Positions 961-21,652 of a DNA stretch of 21,652 nt are shown here, one piece after another. Every line of letters begins with the position of its first letter. The first letter of the stretch is position 1. Made by a program: the position numbers and the translations under genes. Under the pieces are notes generated by a model. The model ran no database searches. It was not told where the DNA came from and worked only from the letters and a program-made list of their open reading frames with translations. Origin of the DNA: a virus. The DNA lies in IMG/VR virus record IMGVR_UViG_3300042987_002475, positions 1 to 21,652 of that record; one strand, 5' to 3'.

Positions 961-2936
961 TGGACATCGAGGAACTGATCCAGCGGGCGGCGGACGAGAA
1001 CGGGCTAGACCCGGCACAGGTCCGCGCGCTGATCGGCATCGAGTCCAATGGCAACCCAAACGCGGTCTCACGGGCGGGGGCGATGGGCATGATGCAGTTG
1101 ATGCCCGGCACGGCGCGCGACTTGGGCGTCACGGACCCGTTCGACCCCGAGCAGAACGTCATGGCCGGCGCGCGATACTTCCGCGACCAGCTCGACGAGT
1201 TCGGCGACCCGGTGCTGGCGGCAGCGGCGTACAATGCCGGGCCCGGCGCGGTGCGAAAGTACGGCGGCGTGCCGCCTTACCGCGAGACGCGAGACTACGT
1301 GGACAAGTTCCGCCGCCGGATGAGCAACGTCGGCATGGCACCGGAGGCAGGCATGGGCATGTACGGATCCGACACGCCGCTGGGCGACCCGACGGCAGAC
1401 GCGATGGCCATGCTGCCGCAGGTGAGCCGGTCGGCGGTGGACCAGAACGTCATCCGCTCGACCATGGGCGTAGCCGACAAGCTCATCAACGGGCAGGTGA
1501 CCGGCTCGCTGACCAGCCCGCAGGACCGGATGGAGAACAGCACCGGGTCCTTGGCTGCCGAGATGATCCCGACCTGGCAGACGGCGCAGAAACTGCTGAA
1601 CCCGGTAAACCTGCTGCAGCTGCCGATGCGTGCGTTGAAGATGGTGGACTACACGCTGCGCCAGGCGGCCGGGTCGCCTACGCTGACGGACGCAGCGGAG
1701 CAGGCGCTTGCCTACGTGAACGCGGGCGACGTGATCTCGCGGGACCCAGCGGCGACGGCGCGGGATGCCAGGCAGCAGGAACTGACGACGGCCAAGGGCC
1801 TGCGCGGGCAGATCCTGACGCCAACGCAGAAGCTGGTCCACATCTTCACGACGGACCCCTTTGAGGGCGAGCGCCGGGCGATCAACACTAGCAGGGGGAT
1901 GTCGGCCGGCATCAGCGCGCAGATGGAGCTCGACAAGGCGTTCAAGGGCCGGGCCGAGCGCGACGAGGCGATTCGCAAGGCGCCTTACGAAGTCGAGAAG
2001 GCCCGCGCGGATTCCGTCATCGCCGGGATCAACGCCCAGAACGCCCCACGGCTGGGCGAACTTAGCATCCAAGAGAAGGAGCAGGGAATCCGGCTTCGTC
2101 CTTGGGAGGCCCAACTTCGAGCGCGCCAGTTGGCCAATGCCGAGGCCATGCTGCCTGGCGGCGCAGGATACCTACGCGAACGGTCAGACAAGGAAAGCGA
2201 TTGGCAGCGCCAGCTTAGGGCAAGCCGTGAGAACGCATTGAATCAGCAGCAGTTCACGCTTGATCGAGATGCGGCGCGGCGCAGAGCGATTGAAAACGCT
2301 GCCGAGAAGAATCGGGCAAACTCCGCGGCACAAGCGGAGGCCAAGGCCAAGCGCGACGAGCAGGCAGCTATTATCAAGGCCGAGAAAGACCGCCTAGACG
2401 CAATCGAAGCGGTCAAGCTCAAGGCCATGGAAGCCTTGTCGTCGGGCACTGACAAGAACTTGGCCAAGGCAAGGGCCAAGGCGATCCTCGACATCTTCAA
2501 TCAGCGCCACGGCACAAACCTGAGCATCAGCGACGAGGGGCGCCTGCTCAAGCCCGAAGACTACAACTTCCCCATGAATTACGGCGCGCAGGCGGTCGAG
2601 AACGTCTGGGAGGACATCACCAGCCCGCTTGGCGCAATTCTCGGCACTCCGGTTGGAACCGGCAACGCTTTCTACCAGCCAAACTACGTCATCACCGACC
2701 AGCCGGTCACGTCGAGCCGCGCGACTGGTACGTCCGGCCCGCCAATGAGTGCTGCCGCTGGGATGATGGGAACCGGGCCCAGTAGTCCGCCTGCCCAGAC
2801 GATTGACGGAATTCGTGGAGAAGTGGCCGCGCAAGTGAGGGCCAAGTTCAAGCGCGCGATGGGCAGGCCACCAACTCAAATGGAACTTGAAGAGGGCATC
2901 CAGTTTGAACTGAACCGGAGGAACGGTGCCCGGTAA
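957..2936 (+). CDS. Virion protein with N-terminal lytic transglycosylase (SLT) domain
   Basis: Residues 1-120 match the soluble lytic transglycosylase fold. The catalytic glutamate sits in IGIESNGNP (about residue 28 from ATG 960), followed by GAMGMMQLMPGTA and AAYNAGPGAV, the usual substrate-groove motifs. This domain cleaves peptidoglycan glycan strands. The remaining ~530 residues contain a long charged Ala/Glu/Lys/Arg-rich stretch (about 310-500) that is probably coiled coil. Such fusions are typical of ejected virion proteins that open the murein locally during DNA entry rather than lysing the cell. The start is GTG 957 (GTGA overlap with the previous stop) or ATG 960. The DNA of the C-terminal third is visibly less GC-rich than the N-terminal part, suggesting a mosaic gene. 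The SLT call is firm; the ejection role is inferred from context. Confidence 0.88.
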   Translation: MMDIEELIQRAADENGLDPAQVRALIGIESNGNPNAVSRAGAMGMMQLMPGTARDLGVTDPFDPEQNVMAGARYFRDQLDEFGDPVLAAAAYNAGPGAVRKYGGVPPYRETRDYVDKFRRRMSNVGMAPEAGMGMYGSDTPLGDPTADAMAMLPQVSRSAVDQNVIRSTMGVADKLINGQVTGSLTSPQDRMENSTGSLAAEMIPTWQTAQKLLNPVNLLQLPMRALKMVDYTLRQAAGSPTLTDAAEQALAYVNAGDVISRDPAATARDARQQELTTAKGLRGQILTPTQKLVHIFTTDPFEGERRAINTSRGMSAGISAQMELDKAFKGRAERDEAIRKAPYEVEKARADSVIAGINAQNAPRLGELSIQEKEQGIRLRPWEAQLRARQLANAEAMLPGGAGYLRERSDKESDWQRQLRASRENALNQQQFTLDRDAARRRAIENAAEKNRANSAAQAEAKAKRDEQAAIIKAEKDRLDAIEAVKLKAMEALSSGTDKNLAKARAKAILDIFNQRHGTNLSISDEGRLLKPEDYNFPMNYGAQAVENVWEDITSPLGAILGTPVGTGNAFYQPNYVITDQPVTSSRATGTSGPPMSAAAGMMGTGPSSPPAQTIDGIRGEVAAQVRAKFKRAMGRPPTQMELEEGIQFELNRRNGAR

Positions 2937-5406
2937 TCTGGACTGGGACTCGATTCTGTCTTTGGAAGACACGGACACGAACGGGGATCACCCGAGGTCC
3001 GTTGATTGGAATTCGATCCTGTCGCAGCCGGATGAACCAGCGCCGGCACCAGAGCCTACTGGTTCGTCGTCCTGGTCCATGAAGGACGTCGCCCCGCTGG
3101 CTGCCGGCACGGTGGCTGCCCTGGCGGCAGCGCCGGTTGTCGGCACGACGGTGGGCGGCATGGCAGCAACCGGGGCGCTGGCCGGCATGGCCGGCAAGGC
3201 TGCCCGCAACTGGTACAACGACAAACCTTTCACCGAGGGGCTTTTCGACCCGGCTGACATGGCCTTCGATGCTGCCACGGGCTTGATCCCGATGGGCGTC
3301 TCGAGCGGCGTGGCCAACCTGATCGGCAAGGGCATCGTCAAGCCTGCGCTCGTCGGCGCGGCGACTGGCGCCGGACTGAGTGGCGGCATCGGTGCCGTCA
3401 GAAGGTACGCGCACGGGCAGGAACCCCTGTCGGGCATTGGCACCGACTTAACCATCGGTGCCGGGTTTGGCGGGCTGCAGGGCGGCATTGAGGGTTACGT
3501 GCGCAGCGAGGCCCCAAGCAGCGGGCCGGCACCTCGAGCGAGCTCGGGGCCGGTGCCCAGCGAGCCGGTGTCGACAGGCTGGGGCGAGCTGCCGATGAAG
3601 GGCGACACGGCCCTGTCCTACGACCAGGTGATCGTCGGCCCGCAGAAAGTGGCCGTCGCGCCTCCGGGCACGAATGCCTTTGCAAAGATCAGCAACGCCG
3701 TCGGCAGCCTGCGGGACCAGACGATTGGCAGGCTGTTCGGAGGCGACCTCGCCCCTGGCGTGTCGACTGCCGTGCGTAGCCCGCACGATATCCTGCTCGA
3801 CCGGGGAGGCGAGGCCGGCCGCGCTGCCGTCGAAGCCGCGCGCACACGGGCCACCGGGCACGACATGGCCTTGGCCGCCACGGACAACATGCTCGGGTCC
3901 GTGACGTCCGGGCTGGCCGAACCACAGCAGCGGAACGTCTACGCCCTCCTGCGTGCGATCCGCGACGGAAGTCCAGACGCCGACGCGATCTATGCCCGGA
4001 TGTCTCCGTCTGAGCGACTCGCGGCGCTCAAGTACAACGAGGAATACCTGCAGCCGTCCTTGCAGTTGCAGCAGAAGGCCGGGGTGCATGTCCGCAACGG
4101 GTCGGAAATTGCCGAGGCCGGTGGCAACTGGGTGACTCGGCCGACATTCACGAAGCCCGACCCGGCGCTGCATGCTTTCCCCGATTACGTGACGACCGGG
4201 CGCAATCCACTGCAGGGTGCTCAGGATATCGTCTCGGTCGAGTCCACTACCGGGCGGCCGCCAGCCGGCCGCGGCGTGCAGCGGATCGAGGACGTGATCC
4301 AGTATGGCCGCCTGCACAACCGCAAGATCGCCCAGGACATTGCCAACGCAGAGGCTTGGGGCGGCGAGCGCGTGCCCATGACGATCGGCGACCAAGAAGT
4401 GTTCGTCGGCAAGCGAGCTGCCGAACTGATCGACCAGCTGCCAGACGACGACACCCGAGAAGTATTTAAGCAGGTCCTCGTGGACCACTATGCTCCGACC
4501 CCGCAGGGCACGACCGATTCCGGCCTGCGCGGTGCATTGCGGATGGCCAAGCAGCGGTCCACCGAGGCCAACATGGGCATGCAGGGCATGCGCCAGCTCG
4601 AGGGACGGACCAACGGCTATGTCCTGCTCGGTGGGGCCAAAACCCGCGAGGGGTTGGCCATGATGAAGGACCCCCGGGCACAGGAGATCTTCGCGCAGGG
4701 CTCGACGACGCCTGGCCTCTCGGGCGAGCTTGAGCGCGCCGGCGTCGACCCGGGCAACCTGTCGATGCAGATGACCCAAGCGGTGGAGTCGACCAACGCC
4801 AGCAAGTACTCGGCGGGTGTCATCCCGCACATGCGTGACCTGAGCCAGCGGATTGCCGGTAAGCTTGAGGCCGGCGAGCCCCTGACGGCGCGGGACGTGT
4901 TTGAGGCGAACGAGATCGGTTTCACGCCCGAGGAACTGGCATCGGCTCGCGGGTCGTTCACCACCGACCAGCTCGTGCGCGGGGCAACGAACTTCGCGCA
5001 GATCACCCAAGGCGTGGCGTCGCGCGGGTCCATGCCCGGGCTGATCCAAGGGGCCGGCCCGGTGCCGAGCCTGCCGCTGCCGGTCGTAAACAAAGGCGGG
5101 GCTGCGCTGCTGTCGAAGTTCCAGCAGGCCGACATGGCCCGCAAGCATATCTGGGAGCTCTTGGCTTCCGACGACGCTTCCCTGCGGCAACTGGGGCGTG
5201 AGCGCGCCCTCCGCCTTGGAGTGCAGGATGCATGGAAGAAGGCAGTCAGGGGCGGCGAGCGCCTGATGTCTGGCCAAGCCCTGTTCGGCGACGACAAGAA
5301 AGACAACTTCAGTTCTAAGGTCGTTCCCTACCTTGCGCCAAGCACGGCACCGTTCATGCCGTTCGTGTCCAGAGTTATCGGCTCGGCCGTATCGGCTGGA
5401 AGATGA
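2926..5406 (+). CDS. Large virion protein, probable ejection/internal virion protein
   Basis: This 826-residue product starts at GTG 2926, behind a good GGAGGA site at 2917-2922, and overlaps the previous gene by 11 nt. The N-terminus carries a short motif twice, LDWDSILS (about residues 5-12) and VDWNSILS (26-33), then a Pro/Glu linker. Residues ~50-180 are Ala/Gly-rich with several possible membrane segments. The rest (200-826) is a mixed helical protein with no motif I recognise. Size, position after the transglycosylase protein and the hydrophobic N-third fit a DNA-ejection or internal virion protein. A large polyvalent virion protein is the alternative. No catalytic signature is seen. 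Confidence 0.75.
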   Translation: MPGNLDWDSILSLEDTDTNGDHPRSVDWNSILSQPDEPAPAPEPTGSSSWSMKDVAPLAAGTVAALAAAPVVGTTVGGMAATGALAGMAGKAARNWYNDKPFTEGLFDPADMAFDAATGLIPMGVSSGVANLIGKGIVKPALVGAATGAGLSGGIGAVRRYAHGQEPLSGIGTDLTIGAGFGGLQGGIEGYVRSEAPSSGPAPRASSGPVPSEPVSTGWGELPMKGDTALSYDQVIVGPQKVAVAPPGTNAFAKISNAVGSLRDQTIGRLFGGDLAPGVSTAVRSPHDILLDRGGEAGRAAVEAARTRATGHDMALAATDNMLGSVTSGLAEPQQRNVYALLRAIRDGSPDADAIYARMSPSERLAALKYNEEYLQPSLQLQQKAGVHVRNGSEIAEAGGNWVTRPTFTKPDPALHAFPDYVTTGRNPLQGAQDIVSVESTTGRPPAGRGVQRIEDVIQYGRLHNRKIAQDIANAEAWGGERVPMTIGDQEVFVGKRAAELIDQLPDDDTREVFKQVLVDHYAPTPQGTTDSGLRGALRMAKQRSTEANMGMQGMRQLEGRTNGYVLLGGAKTREGLAMMKDPRAQEIFAQGSTTPGLSGELERAGVDPGNLSMQMTQAVESTNASKYSAGVIPHMRDLSQRIAGKLEAGEPLTARDVFEANEIGFTPEELASARGSFTTDQLVRGATNFAQITQGVASRGSMPGLIQGAGPVPSLPLPVVNKGGAALLSKFQQADMARKHIWELLASDDASLRQLGRERALRLGVQDAWKKAVRGGERLMSGQALFGDDKKDNFSSKVVPYLAPSTAPFMPFVSRVIGSAVSAGR

Positions 5407-5819
5407 TCAACAGCCGCCGCCTGGACGACCTGCTGCCGGTGGTGCAGCGCAAGGCCGAGCGGATGATCGCTGCCGCCCGGGCCGAGGACATCGACCTGCT
5501 GGTGACCAGCACCTACCGCGACTGCGCGAGCCAGAACGCGCTGTATGCCATCGGGCGCACCAAGCCGGGCAAGGTGGTCACTAACGCCAAGTGCGGGCAG
5601 TCGTGGCACCAGTACCGCGTGGCGTTCGATGTCGTGCCCATCGAAGGCGGCAAGGCGATTTGGAACAACACAGCCCTGTGGAAGCGCGTGGGTGCGCTGG
5701 GCAAGCAGTTCGGGCTCGAGTGGGCCGGGGACTGGAAGACCTTCAAGGAGTACCCGCACTTCCAGTACACCGGCGGGCTCACGCGCAAGCAGCTCGCGGC
5801 AGGAGAAATGCCGAAGTGA
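5403..5819 (+). CDS. Endolysin, M15 (VanY/T5-lysin-like) zinc peptidase
   Basis: The 138-residue protein has the zinc-ligand pattern of M15 D-Ala-D-Ala carboxypeptidases and L-alanyl-D-glutamate endopeptidases: SWHQYRVAFD supplies His69 and Asp76, and EYPHFQ supplies His119. An early STYRD motif (36-40) and EWAGDW (106-111) complete the active-site region. Length matches single-domain phage lysins of this family. There is no signal peptide, so it would need a holin to reach the murein; two small membrane proteins follow immediately. The start ATG 5403 overlaps the previous stop as ATGA. The enzyme would cut peptide stems of peptidoglycan at lysis. Exact bond specificity cannot be read from sequence. 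Confidence 0.9.
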   Translation: MINSRRLDDLLPVVQRKAERMIAAARAEDIDLLVTSTYRDCASQNALYAIGRTKPGKVVTNAKCGQSWHQYRVAFDVVPIEGGKAIWNNTALWKRVGALGKQFGLEWAGDWKTFKEYPHFQYTGGLTRKQLAAGEMPK

Positions 5820-13872: not shown

Positions 13873-13878
13873 GTGTGC

Positions 13879-14865
13879 ATGGGCACTCGCCGCGTTGCGT
13901 CGGGCAGGGAAGAGTCGGTACTTGACCGGCCACGTTTCACCCCCGACCGCATGCAGCAGATGACCCTGTTCGAGGAGGCGCGCCCTGCGACCTTCGGCGC
14001 CTACGCGCTCGCGTGGCACTCGAGGTATTGCTCGCCGCCTTGGGTGACGGCCTACACGTCGAAGGTGCGCCTGGGCGTGCTGCGCGCGCAGGTGCTGCCG
14101 GCGCTCGGGCACCTGCGGATCGAGGACGTGACCGTCGCCGAGCTCGAGCGCGTCCAGCGCGACATGATGCAGCGCATGAAGCCTGCGTCTGTCAGCCACA
14201 CCTTCCGCTCGGCCATCGGGCCCGTGCTGAAGCAGGCCGTCGTGGACGGGCTCATCCCGGCGCACCCCATGCGGGCGCTGCGCTGGCCGCGGGTCGATCC
14301 GCCCAAGCCTGACCCGTACACCGACGCCGAGGTGGACCTGCTGCTCGAATGGTTCCGGCGGCACGCGCCGCAGTTCGAGGTGGCCGTGGCCTTGGTCATG
14401 CTGGCCGGCTTGCGCCCAAGCGAGGCTTGCGGGCTCAAGTGGGGCGACATCGACAAGAACAGCGTCCTGATCGAGCGGGCAGTCGTGGACGGGCAGGTGA
14501 CCACCACGAAGACCAAGCGCAGCGTGCGCAAGATCAGCGTCAGCAAGCGCCTTGGCGCCATCCTGCGCCGCCGGCGTGGGCAGGCAGACGAGTGGGTCTG
14601 CCTGCACCGTGGCCGGCTGGTCAGGACGCAGGCGCTCGGCTGCTACTGGATGCGCCGAGCCTGCCAGGACGTCGGCGTGCGGCACCGGGGGCTCTACGCG
14701 GGCCGCCGGCACGCCATTTCGGCTGCGATCTCCGACGGCGCCGAGATCGGGCACGTCGCGGCCTACTGCGGCACCTCGATCACGAGGATCGAGCGGCACT
14801 ACTACCGCTACTTGGGGGCCCTCAGCGACCCCCGGGAGGCTGCGAAGAGGAAGCATTCGGCATAG
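13879..14865 (+). CDS. int: Tyrosine-type site-specific integrase
   Basis: The 328-residue product (ATG 13879; GTG 13873 in frame upstream) has an N-terminal SAM-like core-binding domain (about 37-130) and a C-terminal catalytic domain. Visible catalytic elements are LAGLRPSEACGLKW (Arg179), TKTKRSVRK (Lys211/213), AGRRHAIS (Arg277), YCGTS (about 296-300) and the nucleophile region ERHYYRY (Tyr308 or 309). The usual HxxR His is Ala here, and the second His/Trp position is Thr, both tolerated variations in phage integrases. There is no clear ribosome site before ATG 13879; ATG 13951 would lose part of the N-terminus. It would insert the phage genome at a host att site. No excisionase is recognised, though several small genes could serve. 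Confidence 0.92.
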   Translation: MGTRRVASGREESVLDRPRFTPDRMQQMTLFEEARPATFGAYALAWHSRYCSPPWVTAYTSKVRLGVLRAQVLPALGHLRIEDVTVAELERVQRDMMQRMKPASVSHTFRSAIGPVLKQAVVDGLIPAHPMRALRWPRVDPPKPDPYTDAEVDLLLEWFRRHAPQFEVAVALVMLAGLRPSEACGLKWGDIDKNSVLIERAVVDGQVTTTKTKRSVRKISVSKRLGAILRRRRGQADEWVCLHRGRLVRTQALGCYWMRRACQDVGVRHRGLYAGRRHAISAAISDGAEIGHVAAYCGTSITRIERHYYRYLGALSDPREAAKRKHSA

Positions 14866-18390: not shown

Positions 18391-18687
18391 GTGATCTTGC
18401 CGCCCGTCATGCCGGATGACGGGATTGCGCTGAAGGACAAGCTCGAGCTGCTCGAGCGGGAAGTGGTGGGGCTGAAGGGGTTGCTTGAGGTGCCCAACGG
18501 GCTGCCGATCGGGCAGCAGGTGCATGCCCTGGGCGAGGCGGTTGGGATCCTGCTGGCAATCCTGCAGTCGGTACACCCGCAGCTGCGGATGACCGCGAAC
18601 CCGGATTTCATGCGGCGTGTTCTGGGGATCACGATGGTGGAGAAGTCGCCCATCGTGCAGCCGACGCCGAGGCTGCTTCGGCAGTGA
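18391..18687 (+). CDS. Hypothetical coiled-coil protein preceding terminase
   Basis: GTG 18391 (98 residues) or ATG 18409 (92 residues) begins this product; neither has a good ribosome site. The N-terminal part has a short coiled coil (LKDKLELLEREVVGLKGLLE), then a hydrophobic helix (ALGEAVGILLAILQSVHPQL). The stop overlaps the large-terminase ATPase start as GTGA, so the two are coupled. A small helical protein right before terL could be an oligomerising packaging factor; this cannot be shown here. Confidence 0.55.
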   Translation: MILPPVMPDDGIALKDKLELLEREVVGLKGLLEVPNGLPIGQQVHALGEAVGILLAILQSVHPQLRMTANPDFMRRVLGITMVEKSPIVQPTPRLLRQ

Positions 18688-19577
18688 GCGGAGAGACTGA
18701 CCTTGCGAAGCTGACGGCCGAGCAGCTTGCTTCGCTGAAGGCAAAGGCCAGTCACCAGCTGGCCGAGACGCACCGGCGGGGCCGGTTTGCGCTCTTCAAG
18801 CCGCTCGAGCATCAGCGCGCCTGGTTTCGGTCGACCAAGCAGATCGTCTGCATCGTCGGCGGGAATCAGATGGGCAAGACGACTTGCGGGTCCATCAAGC
18901 TTCTGAGCAGCGCGTTGGGGACCTGCCCGCCGGCCCTGGGGGGCGTCATCCCGGCGTCGTGGGACCGGCTCGACTGCCGCGGGCAGCGGTACCTGATCGT
19001 CGCCGAGTCGTTCCAGACGGTCATCGCGAAGACGATCCTGCCGAAGCTGCAGGAGTACATGACCAACGAAATGCAGTCGAAGTCACCGAAGAAGAACCCG
19101 GGGACCAAACTGGCCGAGTTGTTCTACTTGCGCTCGGGCGCCGAGATCCACGTGCAGTCCTACGAGCAGGACCCGGCCAGTTTCGAGGGTCCGACGTGGG
19201 ACGGCGTGTGGTTCGACGAGCCCCCGCCGCAGGCCGTGTTCAATGCCGTTCGCCGCGGGACGATCGCCAAAAAGGGCTGGATCTGGATCACCGCGACTCC
19301 GCTGCGCGAGGCGTGGATGCGCGACGTCATCGTGAAGCCGGCCGAGGACGAGGAAGACCAGATGCACGAGTTCGCCGACGTGTTCGGCGGCAAAATGCAC
19401 GACAATTGCCAGGACTGCTTCGGCGGGTACCTGCCGCATGCGTACATCGTTGGCTACTTGGCATCGCTTCCCCCCGAGGAGCGGGCCGTTCGCGAGCGAG
19501 GCGAGTTTTTCAACGTGTCGGATTTGGCCTTTGGGACCGTATCCGAGCAGCTGCATGTCATCGGGGACCTCTGGTGA
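18684..19577 (+). CDS. terL: Terminase large subunit, ATPase half (stand-alone)
   Basis: The 297-residue product carries the packaging-motor ATPase: Walker A GGNQMGKT (59-66), Walker B GVWFDEPP (174-181, Asp178, Glu179) and coupling motif TATP (202-205). It ends shortly after GEFFNVSDLAFGTVSEQLHV, the segment that in single-chain large terminases leads into the nuclease domain. No nuclease domain follows in this frame. It is coupled upstream (GTGA at 18684) and downstream (GTGA at 19574) to other cistrons. It powers DNA translocation into proheads, so here it should need the separate nuclease product to cut DNA. Confidence 0.88.
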   Translation: MSGETDLAKLTAEQLASLKAKASHQLAETHRRGRFALFKPLEHQRAWFRSTKQIVCIVGGNQMGKTTCGSIKLLSSALGTCPPALGGVIPASWDRLDCRGQRYLIVAESFQTVIAKTILPKLQEYMTNEMQSKSPKKNPGTKLAELFYLRSGAEIHVQSYEQDPASFEGPTWDGVWFDEPPPQAVFNAVRRGTIAKKGWIWITATPLREAWMRDVIVKPAEDEEDQMHEFADVFGGKMHDNCQDCFGGYLPHAYIVGYLASLPPEERAVRERGEFFNVSDLAFGTVSEQLHVIGDLW

Positions 19578-19732
19578 AGATCGTGTCCCTGCGTCCGGCG
19601 CCGCCGGTGAAACACGAGTGCCCGAGGTGCAAGCGGGTCATCCGCTGGGCGTTGCTCTATTGCTCGACGTGCGCGGGCCGGTCGAACCCGCAGTACCGTC
19701 CTGAGCTTGACAAGGCACGGATCAAACGATGA
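19574..19732 (+). CDS. Zinc-ribbon miniprotein between the terminase halves
   Basis: GTG 19574 overlaps the ATPase stop and its own TGA (19730-19732) overlaps the nuclease ATG as ATGA. The 52-residue product has CPRC (16-19) and CSTC (30-33), a clean four-Cys zinc ribbon, with Pro-rich N-terminal and basic C-terminal flanks (DKARIKR). Composition and tight coupling argue for a real gene. It could bridge ATPase and nuclease, bind DNA at the motor, or act as a packaging regulator. HNH-type zinc proteins near terminases are known to stimulate cutting, but this one has no HNH motif. Confidence 0.72.
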   Translation: MKIVSLRPAPPVKHECPRCKRVIRWALLYCSTCAGRSNPQYRPELDKARIKR

Positions 19733-20490
19733 GCGAGCGCCTGTCGAACCCCCAAAGCTGGCCCATCGTCGAGGTTTGCGACCCGAGCGGTCGCCGCGGC
19801 CTGCACATCATCTGGGCCGCCGTCGACCCCGAGGACTACTGGTACATCGTCTGGGCTGCCAAGGTCCCGCCGGGTGCGTTCAGCGAGATGGCCAAGGGCG
19901 TGAAGAGCGAGCGCAAGATGCTCCCGCACGAGCCCGACCTGGCCATCATGGACGCTCGAGGTGGGGCGTACCAGGTCGACATGGAGACCCGGGAGACGTT
20001 TTTCGATCGGTTCCGTCAGTTTGGCCTGCTTTACACGCCAAGCATTCAGCAGTCCGAAACCATGGATGCCGACATTGCCGTCCTGCGGGACTGGCTGATG
20101 CCTCGCTACAACCCGGTCGCTGACCGGTCGATCCCGAAGCTGCGTTTCACTCGTAGCGTCGCACAGATGAAAGAGGGGCCACTATGGGCGCTGCAGACAT
20201 TCGTGTGGGACCCGCACAAGCAAACACGGACTTGGCACTACAAGCAAAAGAGCAAGGACTTCGTGGATTGCCTGCGCTACCTGGCGATCTACCCGGGCCT
20301 GTCCTATCGGCGGTTCCAGAACCAGACGGACCCGGCAGTGTACCGGGGGAACAGCCTGGCGGACAGCTACCGCCGGCCAAAGCTCGCCGGGGACGCCCGC
20401 GCGGTACCTCGAGGTCTGACGCGCAACGGGGCGCCCATGGGGTACCGTTCAGCCTGGAACAGGAGGCGCAACGGCTCGGGCTTGTTGTAG
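19729..20490 (+). CDS. terL: Terminase large subunit, nuclease half (stand-alone)
   Basis: The 253-residue product resembles the RNase H-like nuclease domain of large terminases: VEVCDPSGRRG supplies Asp18, LAIMDARGG Asp75, and KSKDFVDCLRYLAIY Asp177/Asp180, the three acidic positions that bind two metal ions. Upstream text (PQSWPIVEVCDP) matches the usual start of that domain. There is no ATPase motif. It would make the cuts that start and end packaging. It begins at ATG 19729 in a different frame from the ATPase (frames 0, 2, 1 across the three cistrons), so no single frameshift restores one chain. The last ~50 residues are basic and overlap the beginning of another reading frame. Confidence 0.8.
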   Translation: MSERLSNPQSWPIVEVCDPSGRRGLHIIWAAVDPEDYWYIVWAAKVPPGAFSEMAKGVKSERKMLPHEPDLAIMDARGGAYQVDMETRETFFDRFRQFGLLYTPSIQQSETMDADIAVLRDWLMPRYNPVADRSIPKLRFTRSVAQMKEGPLWALQTFVWDPHKQTRTWHYKQKSKDFVDCLRYLAIYPGLSYRRFQNQTDPAVYRGNSLADSYRRPKLAGDARAVPRGLTRNGAPMGYRSAWNRRRNGSGLL

Positions 20491-20969: not shown

Positions 20970-21652
20970 TTGGAATTTCCGCCGGGCTCTGCCCCGCAAG
21001 GACAGTCGGACCCCACTCAGGCGCTGCAGGCGTCCCCGACGTCGCCTTTTCCCGTTCCCAACTGGCTCTCGATGGGCCGCCCGGGCGACCTGCCCGGACT
21101 GGTGGACCCCGAAGCGGTCACCAAGCTTACCGACAAGGGCATCGTCGACTGGGTTCAGCAGTGCGTTTCCACCTGCAAGGACGCCCGCCGCGGCCTCGAG
21201 GAAGAGTGGCGGAACTACACCGACCTGTACTTGAACCGCCGGCCGCTCGACGCGGGTAGCAAGGCCGACTGGCAGGCCGACATCTTCGTCCCGGTCATCT
21301 TCAACAAGATCGAGCTGGCGAAGTCTCTGGTGAAGGGCGCCCTGCTGGATGCCCCCGGGTCGTGGTTCATGCTCGAGGAGTACCCGACCTACGAGTATGT
21401 GAGCGCGCAAGTCAGGTTCATCGAGAAGGTGCTCCGCTACGAGCTCGAGCGCGGGCAGTTCGTTGACGAGTACATGAAGGCCCTCGAGGAGGGTCTGCTG
21501 CTCGGGTCCGGGTGCTTGAAGATTTATTGGGACGACTGGATCGAGCGCGGCCCGCAGATCACGGACATCCCGACGGGCATGGTCGACCCCATGACCGGGA
21601 TGCCGCAGACGTTCCCGGTGGTGCAGTCGGCGCCGCGGCCGAGGAACGGGCT
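20970..21652 (+). CDS. Portal protein, N-terminal part, cut by the window end
   Basis: An open frame of 227 complete codons runs to the end of the window. It starts at TTG 20970 directly after the previous stop, with GGGAGA upstream; ATG 21072 is an in-frame alternative. Segments such as ADIFVPVIFNKIELAKSLVK and DEYMKALEEGLLLGSGCLKI are typical of podovirus/P22-like portal proteins, where helices of the clip and wing precede the stem. Twelve copies would form the DNA entry ring to which the terminase docks. Location right after terL supports this. The N-terminal ~30 residues are Pro/Ser/Gln-rich and may not be translated if ATG 21072 is used. Confidence 0.75.
   Translation, partial: MEFPPGSAPQGQSDPTQALQASPTSPFPVPNWLSMGRPGDLPGLVDPEAVTKLTDKGIVDWVQQCVSTCKDARRGLEEEWRNYTDLYLNRRPLDAGSKADWQADIFVPVIFNKIELAKSLVKGALLDAPGSWFMLEEYPTYEYVSAQVRFIEKVLRYELERGQFVDEYMKALEEGLLLGSGCLKIYWDDWIERGPQITDIPTGMVDPMTGMPQTFPVVQSAPRPRNG

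Follow-up and report, generated by a model that had tools for sequence, protein, structure and literature searches.

A 21,652-nt virus record (IMGVR_UViG_3300042987_002475, positions 1 to 21,652; hereafter the window) encodes the ATPase and the nuclease of its large terminase subunit (TerL) as separate genes, with a gene for a small zinc-ribbon-type protein between them. In all likelihood this is a working, naturally split large terminase, and the split most probably arose once, through entry of the zinc-ribbon gene into the linker of a single-chain terL. A two-gene split of TerL is already known from a few cultured Arthrobacter phages, and the three-gene form is new within the open-licence literature, where we found no description of a split terminase with a zinc-ribbon gene in the TerL linker.

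A natural split of this kind is informative because an artificial cut at the linker of phage T4 gp17 abolishes translocation, although both the ATPase and the nuclease activities are kept (PMC3012670, PMC9958956). T4 gp17 and the TerL of the window share a two-domain architecture and are cut at the same joint, but the artificial split loses translocation whereas the natural one is presumably functional. The T4 work indicates that the covalent hinge is essential for translocation, and a split lineage under purifying selection calls the generality of that conclusion into question. The points of interest are the exact break at the linker, the occurrence of the zinc ribbon in both settings, as a separate gene where terL is intact and within terL where it is split, and the contrast with T4; as far as can be read from sequence, an essential motor gene would have been divided without visible loss of function.

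Anatomy of the locus

The original prediction described three overlapping open reading frames (ORFs) in three different frames, and this is what the window contains (Table 1). The ATPase gene overlaps the middle gene by GTGA and the middle gene overlaps the nuclease gene by ATGA. The same trio, in the same order, recurs in three further contigs: L009 (IMGVR 3300027770_002517), L008 (3300005805_008520) and L168 (RFZO01000154.1, a contig binned as an Actinomycetota MAG). All four split members are metagenome or MAG contig fragments, with no isolate among them, and in all four each gene of the trio lies in the -1 frame relative to the preceding one.

Table 1. Features of the terminase region, with positions in the window.
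Feature	Position	Strand	Start, stop codon	Length (aa)	Evidence and remarks
Gene upstream of the ATPase gene	18391..18687	+		98	GTGA overlap with the ATPase gene; small-terminase candidate by position only
TerL ATPase half, ending at the interdomain linker	18684..19577	+	GTG, TGA	297	Terminase_6N, PHROG 2, alignments
C4 zinc-ribbon-type protein (middle gene)	19574..19732	+	GTG, TGA	52	C-x2-C-x10-C-x2-C; conserved in L008, L009 and L168; free-standing homologues in L021 and L099
TerL RNase H-like nuclease half	19729..20490	+	ATG, TAG	253	Identity to single-chain TerLs, invariant Asp residues, fold matches
Portal/head-tail connector gene, 5' part (runs off the record)	20970..21652	+			PHROG 332, E=6e-11

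The predicted 4-nt overlaps are present in the window but are not universal. An overlap of the nuclease start with the zinc-ribbon stop is common to all four contigs (as ATGA or GTGA), and one of the zinc-ribbon start with the ATPase stop to three of them; the exception is L009, in which the ATPase gene ends with TAG and the GTG start of the middle gene lies 5 nt further on. L009 and L008 have better Shine-Dalgarno-like matches than the window and L168, where these are weak. The trio is likely translated by coupled re-initiation, judging from this arrangement. The translational coupling and the functional motor in several pieces that the original prediction proposed are plausible.

A single chain could still be produced by two programmed -1 frameshifts, by trans-splicing or by intein-like ligation, and the consistent -1 relationship of the genes across four contigs is in keeping with such a scheme. 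We nonetheless consider it very unlikely. Stops and frame changes at both junctions leave the ATPase and nuclease unjoined in all four contigs, proper start codons are present at both junctions, and both the stop codon and the spacing vary among the relatives. Neither junction has a slippery heptamer in any of the four, and programmed frameshifting was rejected on this ground. Group I and group II intron covariance models (Rfam) gave no match in the insert, and a 52-aa middle ORF is too short for an intein. Introns or inteins interrupt terL in phages SIOphi (PMC11878797) and Mic1 (PMC7156551), where splicing restores one chain, whereas no such element was found in the trio of the window.

The flanking genes are also shared with relatives. 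The product of the upstream 98-aa gene is 97% identical to the L168 copy and 76% identical to the L009 copy, and the portal gene, with homologues in the loci L021, L099, L003 and L007, is common to all relatives.

The two enzyme halves and the position of the break

Walker A, Walker B and TATP motifs had been predicted to lie in one ORF, and they do so in the ATPase gene (GGNQMGKTT, VWFDEPP and ITATP), with the motif residues invariant in homologue alignments. Its product matches Pfam Terminase_6N (60.8 bits, cutoff 22) and PHROG 2, ‘terminase large subunit’ (E=5.5e-18). A sequence search of the PDB gave one marginal terminase match for the ATPase and nothing for the nuclease. The ATPase part of the L021 TerL (2318-3979) has two CxxC pairs (CEEC...CREC), of which the window retains only the second (CQDC); the pairs in L021 are possibly an internal zinc site that has since been lost in the window.

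The RNase H-like acid triad ascribed to the nuclease ORF was confirmed by conserved residues, identity to TerL and fold matches. D18, D75, D177 and D180 are invariant across ten aligned homologues, and across some 200 residues the protein shares 41-44% identity with the C-terminal half of single-chain TerLs. Its structural model is good in the core only (mean pLDDT 59.5, core about 70-90); among solved structures the P22 terminase nuclease domain matches best (E=0.011), and among predicted ones viral terminases do (E=1.8e-6). A Pfam search with the nuclease returned no match, but because Terminase_6C was likewise unmatched in all 10 homologues tested, single-chain TerLs included, the shortcoming lies with the profile and not with the family.

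The closest comparisons are with the single-chain relatives L003, L007, L021, L099 and L100 (38-44% identity). The PHROG 2 TerLs of L021, L099, L003 and L007 have this level of identity to both halves and are alike in their motifs and downstream portal gene, but are chains of about 520-554 aa with an uninterrupted linker. Aligned at the junction, the ATPase ends in ‘..HVIGDLW’ and the nuclease begins with ‘..NPxSWPIVEVCDPS’, where the single-chain proteins read ‘..HVVPDFDxPxxWPxVEVVDPS’. The break predicted at the interdomain linker is thus inside it by this alignment, with neither domain missing any residue.

We surveyed 166 loci in which a TerL ATPase was matched (some being the same contig fetched twice), and nearly all of those outside the split group carry TerL as one chain. 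The premise that this is the normal state has known exceptions in the Arthrobacter cluster AT phages discussed below. Besides the split group, L074 alone has a broken TerL in this survey: the distant gene at 591-1967 seems to be split, but it has no middle gene, only a frame change close to the ATPase end, and we discarded it as a likely error or decay. L095 was also dropped as a split candidate, since its match merely began in the frame of the upstream gene and its TerL is a single chain. A tree built from ATPase plus nuclease groups the four split members in a single clade (100/100), surrounded by single-chain relatives.

Split relatives and selection

The relatives preserve all three proteins to different degrees. 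Identity to the window is 84% for the ATPase, 87% for the nuclease and 56% for the zinc ribbon in L009; 82% (partial), 83% and 71% in L008; and 82%, 85% and 100% in L168. Two of the three comparisons show lower conservation of the zinc ribbon (56-71%) than of the enzymes. The middle ORF is nevertheless kept in all close relatives found, none of which has the two halves fused by a single indel. Plasmids and 298 genomes of the order of the MAG yielded no additional split member.

All three genes have dN/dS below 1, with pairwise values of 0.11-0.23 (ATPase) and 0.16-0.27 (nuclease). Between the window and L168 the zinc-ribbon gene has 12 nucleotide differences, all 12 synonymous and none nonsynonymous, and the same changes read in the other two frames are 10:1 and 8:2 nonsynonymous to synonymous; if 40 of the 156 sites are counted as synonymous, a simple estimate puts the chance of 12 of 12 being synonymous at about 1e-7. 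Because the ratio is weaker in two pairs with L008 (0.44-0.50), constraint on the zinc ribbon is clear but not uniform.

These data bear on whether the broken gene is simply decaying, is an assembly error or is a prophage remnant. That every split member is a metagenomic or MAG contig speaks for such an explanation, but four independent contigs have identical organisation and intact motifs, fall into one clade and have dN/dS of about 0.2, making it highly improbable. Decay and assembly error were rejected on the strength of the four contigs, the motifs and dN/dS, in agreement with the original prediction that the locus is not decaying.

Origin and possible role of the zinc-ribbon gene

The four cysteines of the middle protein form two knuckles and are invariant across the four split members and a homologue in L021. 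Matches to known families in Pfam, PHROG and NCBIfam were all sub-threshold, a search of 50,697 phage records gave no match, and a fold search with the AF2 model, which is poor (pLDDT 65), also gave none.

Homologues of the zinc ribbon are present in L021 and L099 as a separate gene upstream of an intact single-chain terL (products of 554 and 549 aa, 57% identical to each other). The L021 gene, at 1174-1329, encodes a protein with 55% identity over 27 residues (E=2e-6 / 4e-8). The L099 protein has C-x3-C and C-x2-C knuckles. A profile built without this protein detects it (E=1.7e-8 and 2e-10), and over 48 residues it shares 50% identity with its L021 counterpart; the next gene after the zinc ribbon is homologous between the two loci (E=8e-26). 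In L099 an HNH endonuclease gene (660-1244) lies directly 3' of the zinc ribbon, before this homologous gene, and is a possible vehicle for moving the zinc ribbon. L098 was set aside as a carrier, as the cysteine pattern there matches only one knuckle of an unrelated protein.

The free-standing copies rule out a zinc ribbon carved from the TerL linker, and the suggestion that it replaces the linker did not stand as a statement of origin. Its status as a separate gene in L021 and L099 marks it as older and independent, and most likely a later arrival in terL; its presence in relatives with intact TerL means that its older function was not tied to the split. Relocation into terL seems the likeliest and simplest reading of these comparisons; the reverse route, in which the zinc ribbon left terL and the halves joined up again, is less likely, given that every outgroup is single-chain.

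We envisage that an ancestral small zinc-ribbon gene of the packaging region entered the linker of a single-chain terL on one occasion, with the result that the ATPase gene would now terminate at the linker and the nuclease gene would begin at a newly gained start overlapping the zinc-ribbon stop. The ATPase (the engine) and the nuclease (the cutter, with the translocation groove) would then be made as two polypeptides from one coupled mRNA and would most likely re-assemble on the portal without a covalent linker, with the zinc ribbon in a supporting role, perhaps binding DNA or one of the halves. The direct basis comprises the anatomy of the sequence, conservation, selection, the single split clade and the free-standing zinc ribbon of single-chain relatives, from which we infer the order of events, coupled re-initiation, non-covalent assembly and the supporting role of the zinc ribbon.

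That a split TerL can be viable is evident from cultured, plaque-forming Arthrobacter cluster AT phages. Two terL-related genes were reported in a 2017 Arthrobacter phage genome paper (PMC5513430), and phages KellEzio, Kitkat, BeatusComedenti and DanielleIgnace have genes annotated ‘terminase large subunit, ATPase domain’ and ‘..., nuclease domain’, the nuclease scoring above the Terminase_6C cutoff. As in the window, the ATPase gene precedes a separate nuclease gene on one strand upstream of the portal gene; the cluster AT halves, however, are separated by three to six genes, including a RusA-like resolvase, with no three-gene overlap. Cluster AT phages are absent from the matches to the halves of the window (for one half, among the best 20 of 28), the Arthrobacter phages among the matches listed (best 20 of 28) being Jasmine-like, and no zinc-ribbon homologue was detected in cluster AT phages. 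We take the split in the window to be independent of that in cluster AT, and of another architecture. Small ORFs are present between the cluster AT halves: KellEzio (L169, KU647626.1) has two Cys-containing ones, gp6 and gp7, at 2931-3343, and the gap in DanielleIgnace (L170) at 2073-2374 holds a 42-aa Cys-rich ORF and a membrane-like ORF, none with homology seen to the zinc ribbon of the window.

By analogy with T4, the split lineage must have either a sufficient non-covalent interface or a helper in order to translocate, and the zinc ribbon is a candidate helper from its position and conservation. It may be an obligatory third subunit that bridges or regulates the halves in the role of the hinge, a tentative possibility. 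It sits between the halves in all four members, its cysteines are conserved with strong constraint in one pair, the gene order and overlap would favour balanced synthesis, and the hinge is needed for translocation in T4; against this, the zinc ribbon coexists with intact TerL in L021 and L099, where its older function was not that of a bridge; cluster AT phages have a split TerL but no detected homologue of the zinc ribbon; and the zinc ribbon is the least conserved of the three proteins relative to L009 and L008. A working three-subunit terminase, in which the zinc ribbon substitutes mechanically or regulatorily for the hinge and holds the separate engine and cutter chains together, is doubtful.

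The zinc ribbon could instead be a passenger: a small, unrelated gene that ended up in the linker, with the halves associating through their own interface. This is plausible, if short of an even chance: free-standing homologues lie near single-chain terL, the HNH endonuclease gene beside the L099 copy suggests local gene mobility, and the interface between the two domains of T4 gp17 exceeds 1000 square Angstrom (PMC3012670, PMC9958956). Yet the gene has stayed at the split in four of four members over about 15-18% divergence of the enzyme proteins, and it evolves under constraint. The remaining weight falls on intermediates between a required bridge and a passenger, such as a useful DNA-binding packaging cofactor that is not a bridge. 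A functional split TerL is the main statement that bridge, passenger and intermediates all share, and the lineage offers natural parts for experiments on which halves come together, whether the motor requires as many nuclease as ATPase subunits, and whether the small zinc protein couples them.

Comparison with L168 suggests an exchange of the enzyme genes. The flanking DNA on both sides of the terminase genes is 95-97% identical, whereas the ATPase is 71-88% and the nuclease 82-84% identical at the DNA level, giving a block of about 18% divergence (window 18684-20490, L168 730-2539) whose boundaries coincide sharply with the ATPase start and the nuclease end. Inside this block the zinc-ribbon DNA is 92.7% identical, and because its dS (0.38) is also below that of the ATPase (0.72) and nuclease (0.61), its closeness to L168 is not due to protein constraint alone. 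This pattern suggests that the enzyme genes were swapped together as a module, and that the zinc ribbon partly has another history. Further upstream in the window lie an integrase gene (13873-14865; PHROG 1, E=1e-39), a gene for a large protein with a transglycosylase/lytic tail domain at its N-terminus (957-2936) and an endolysin gene (5403-5819), which together suggest a temperate phage.
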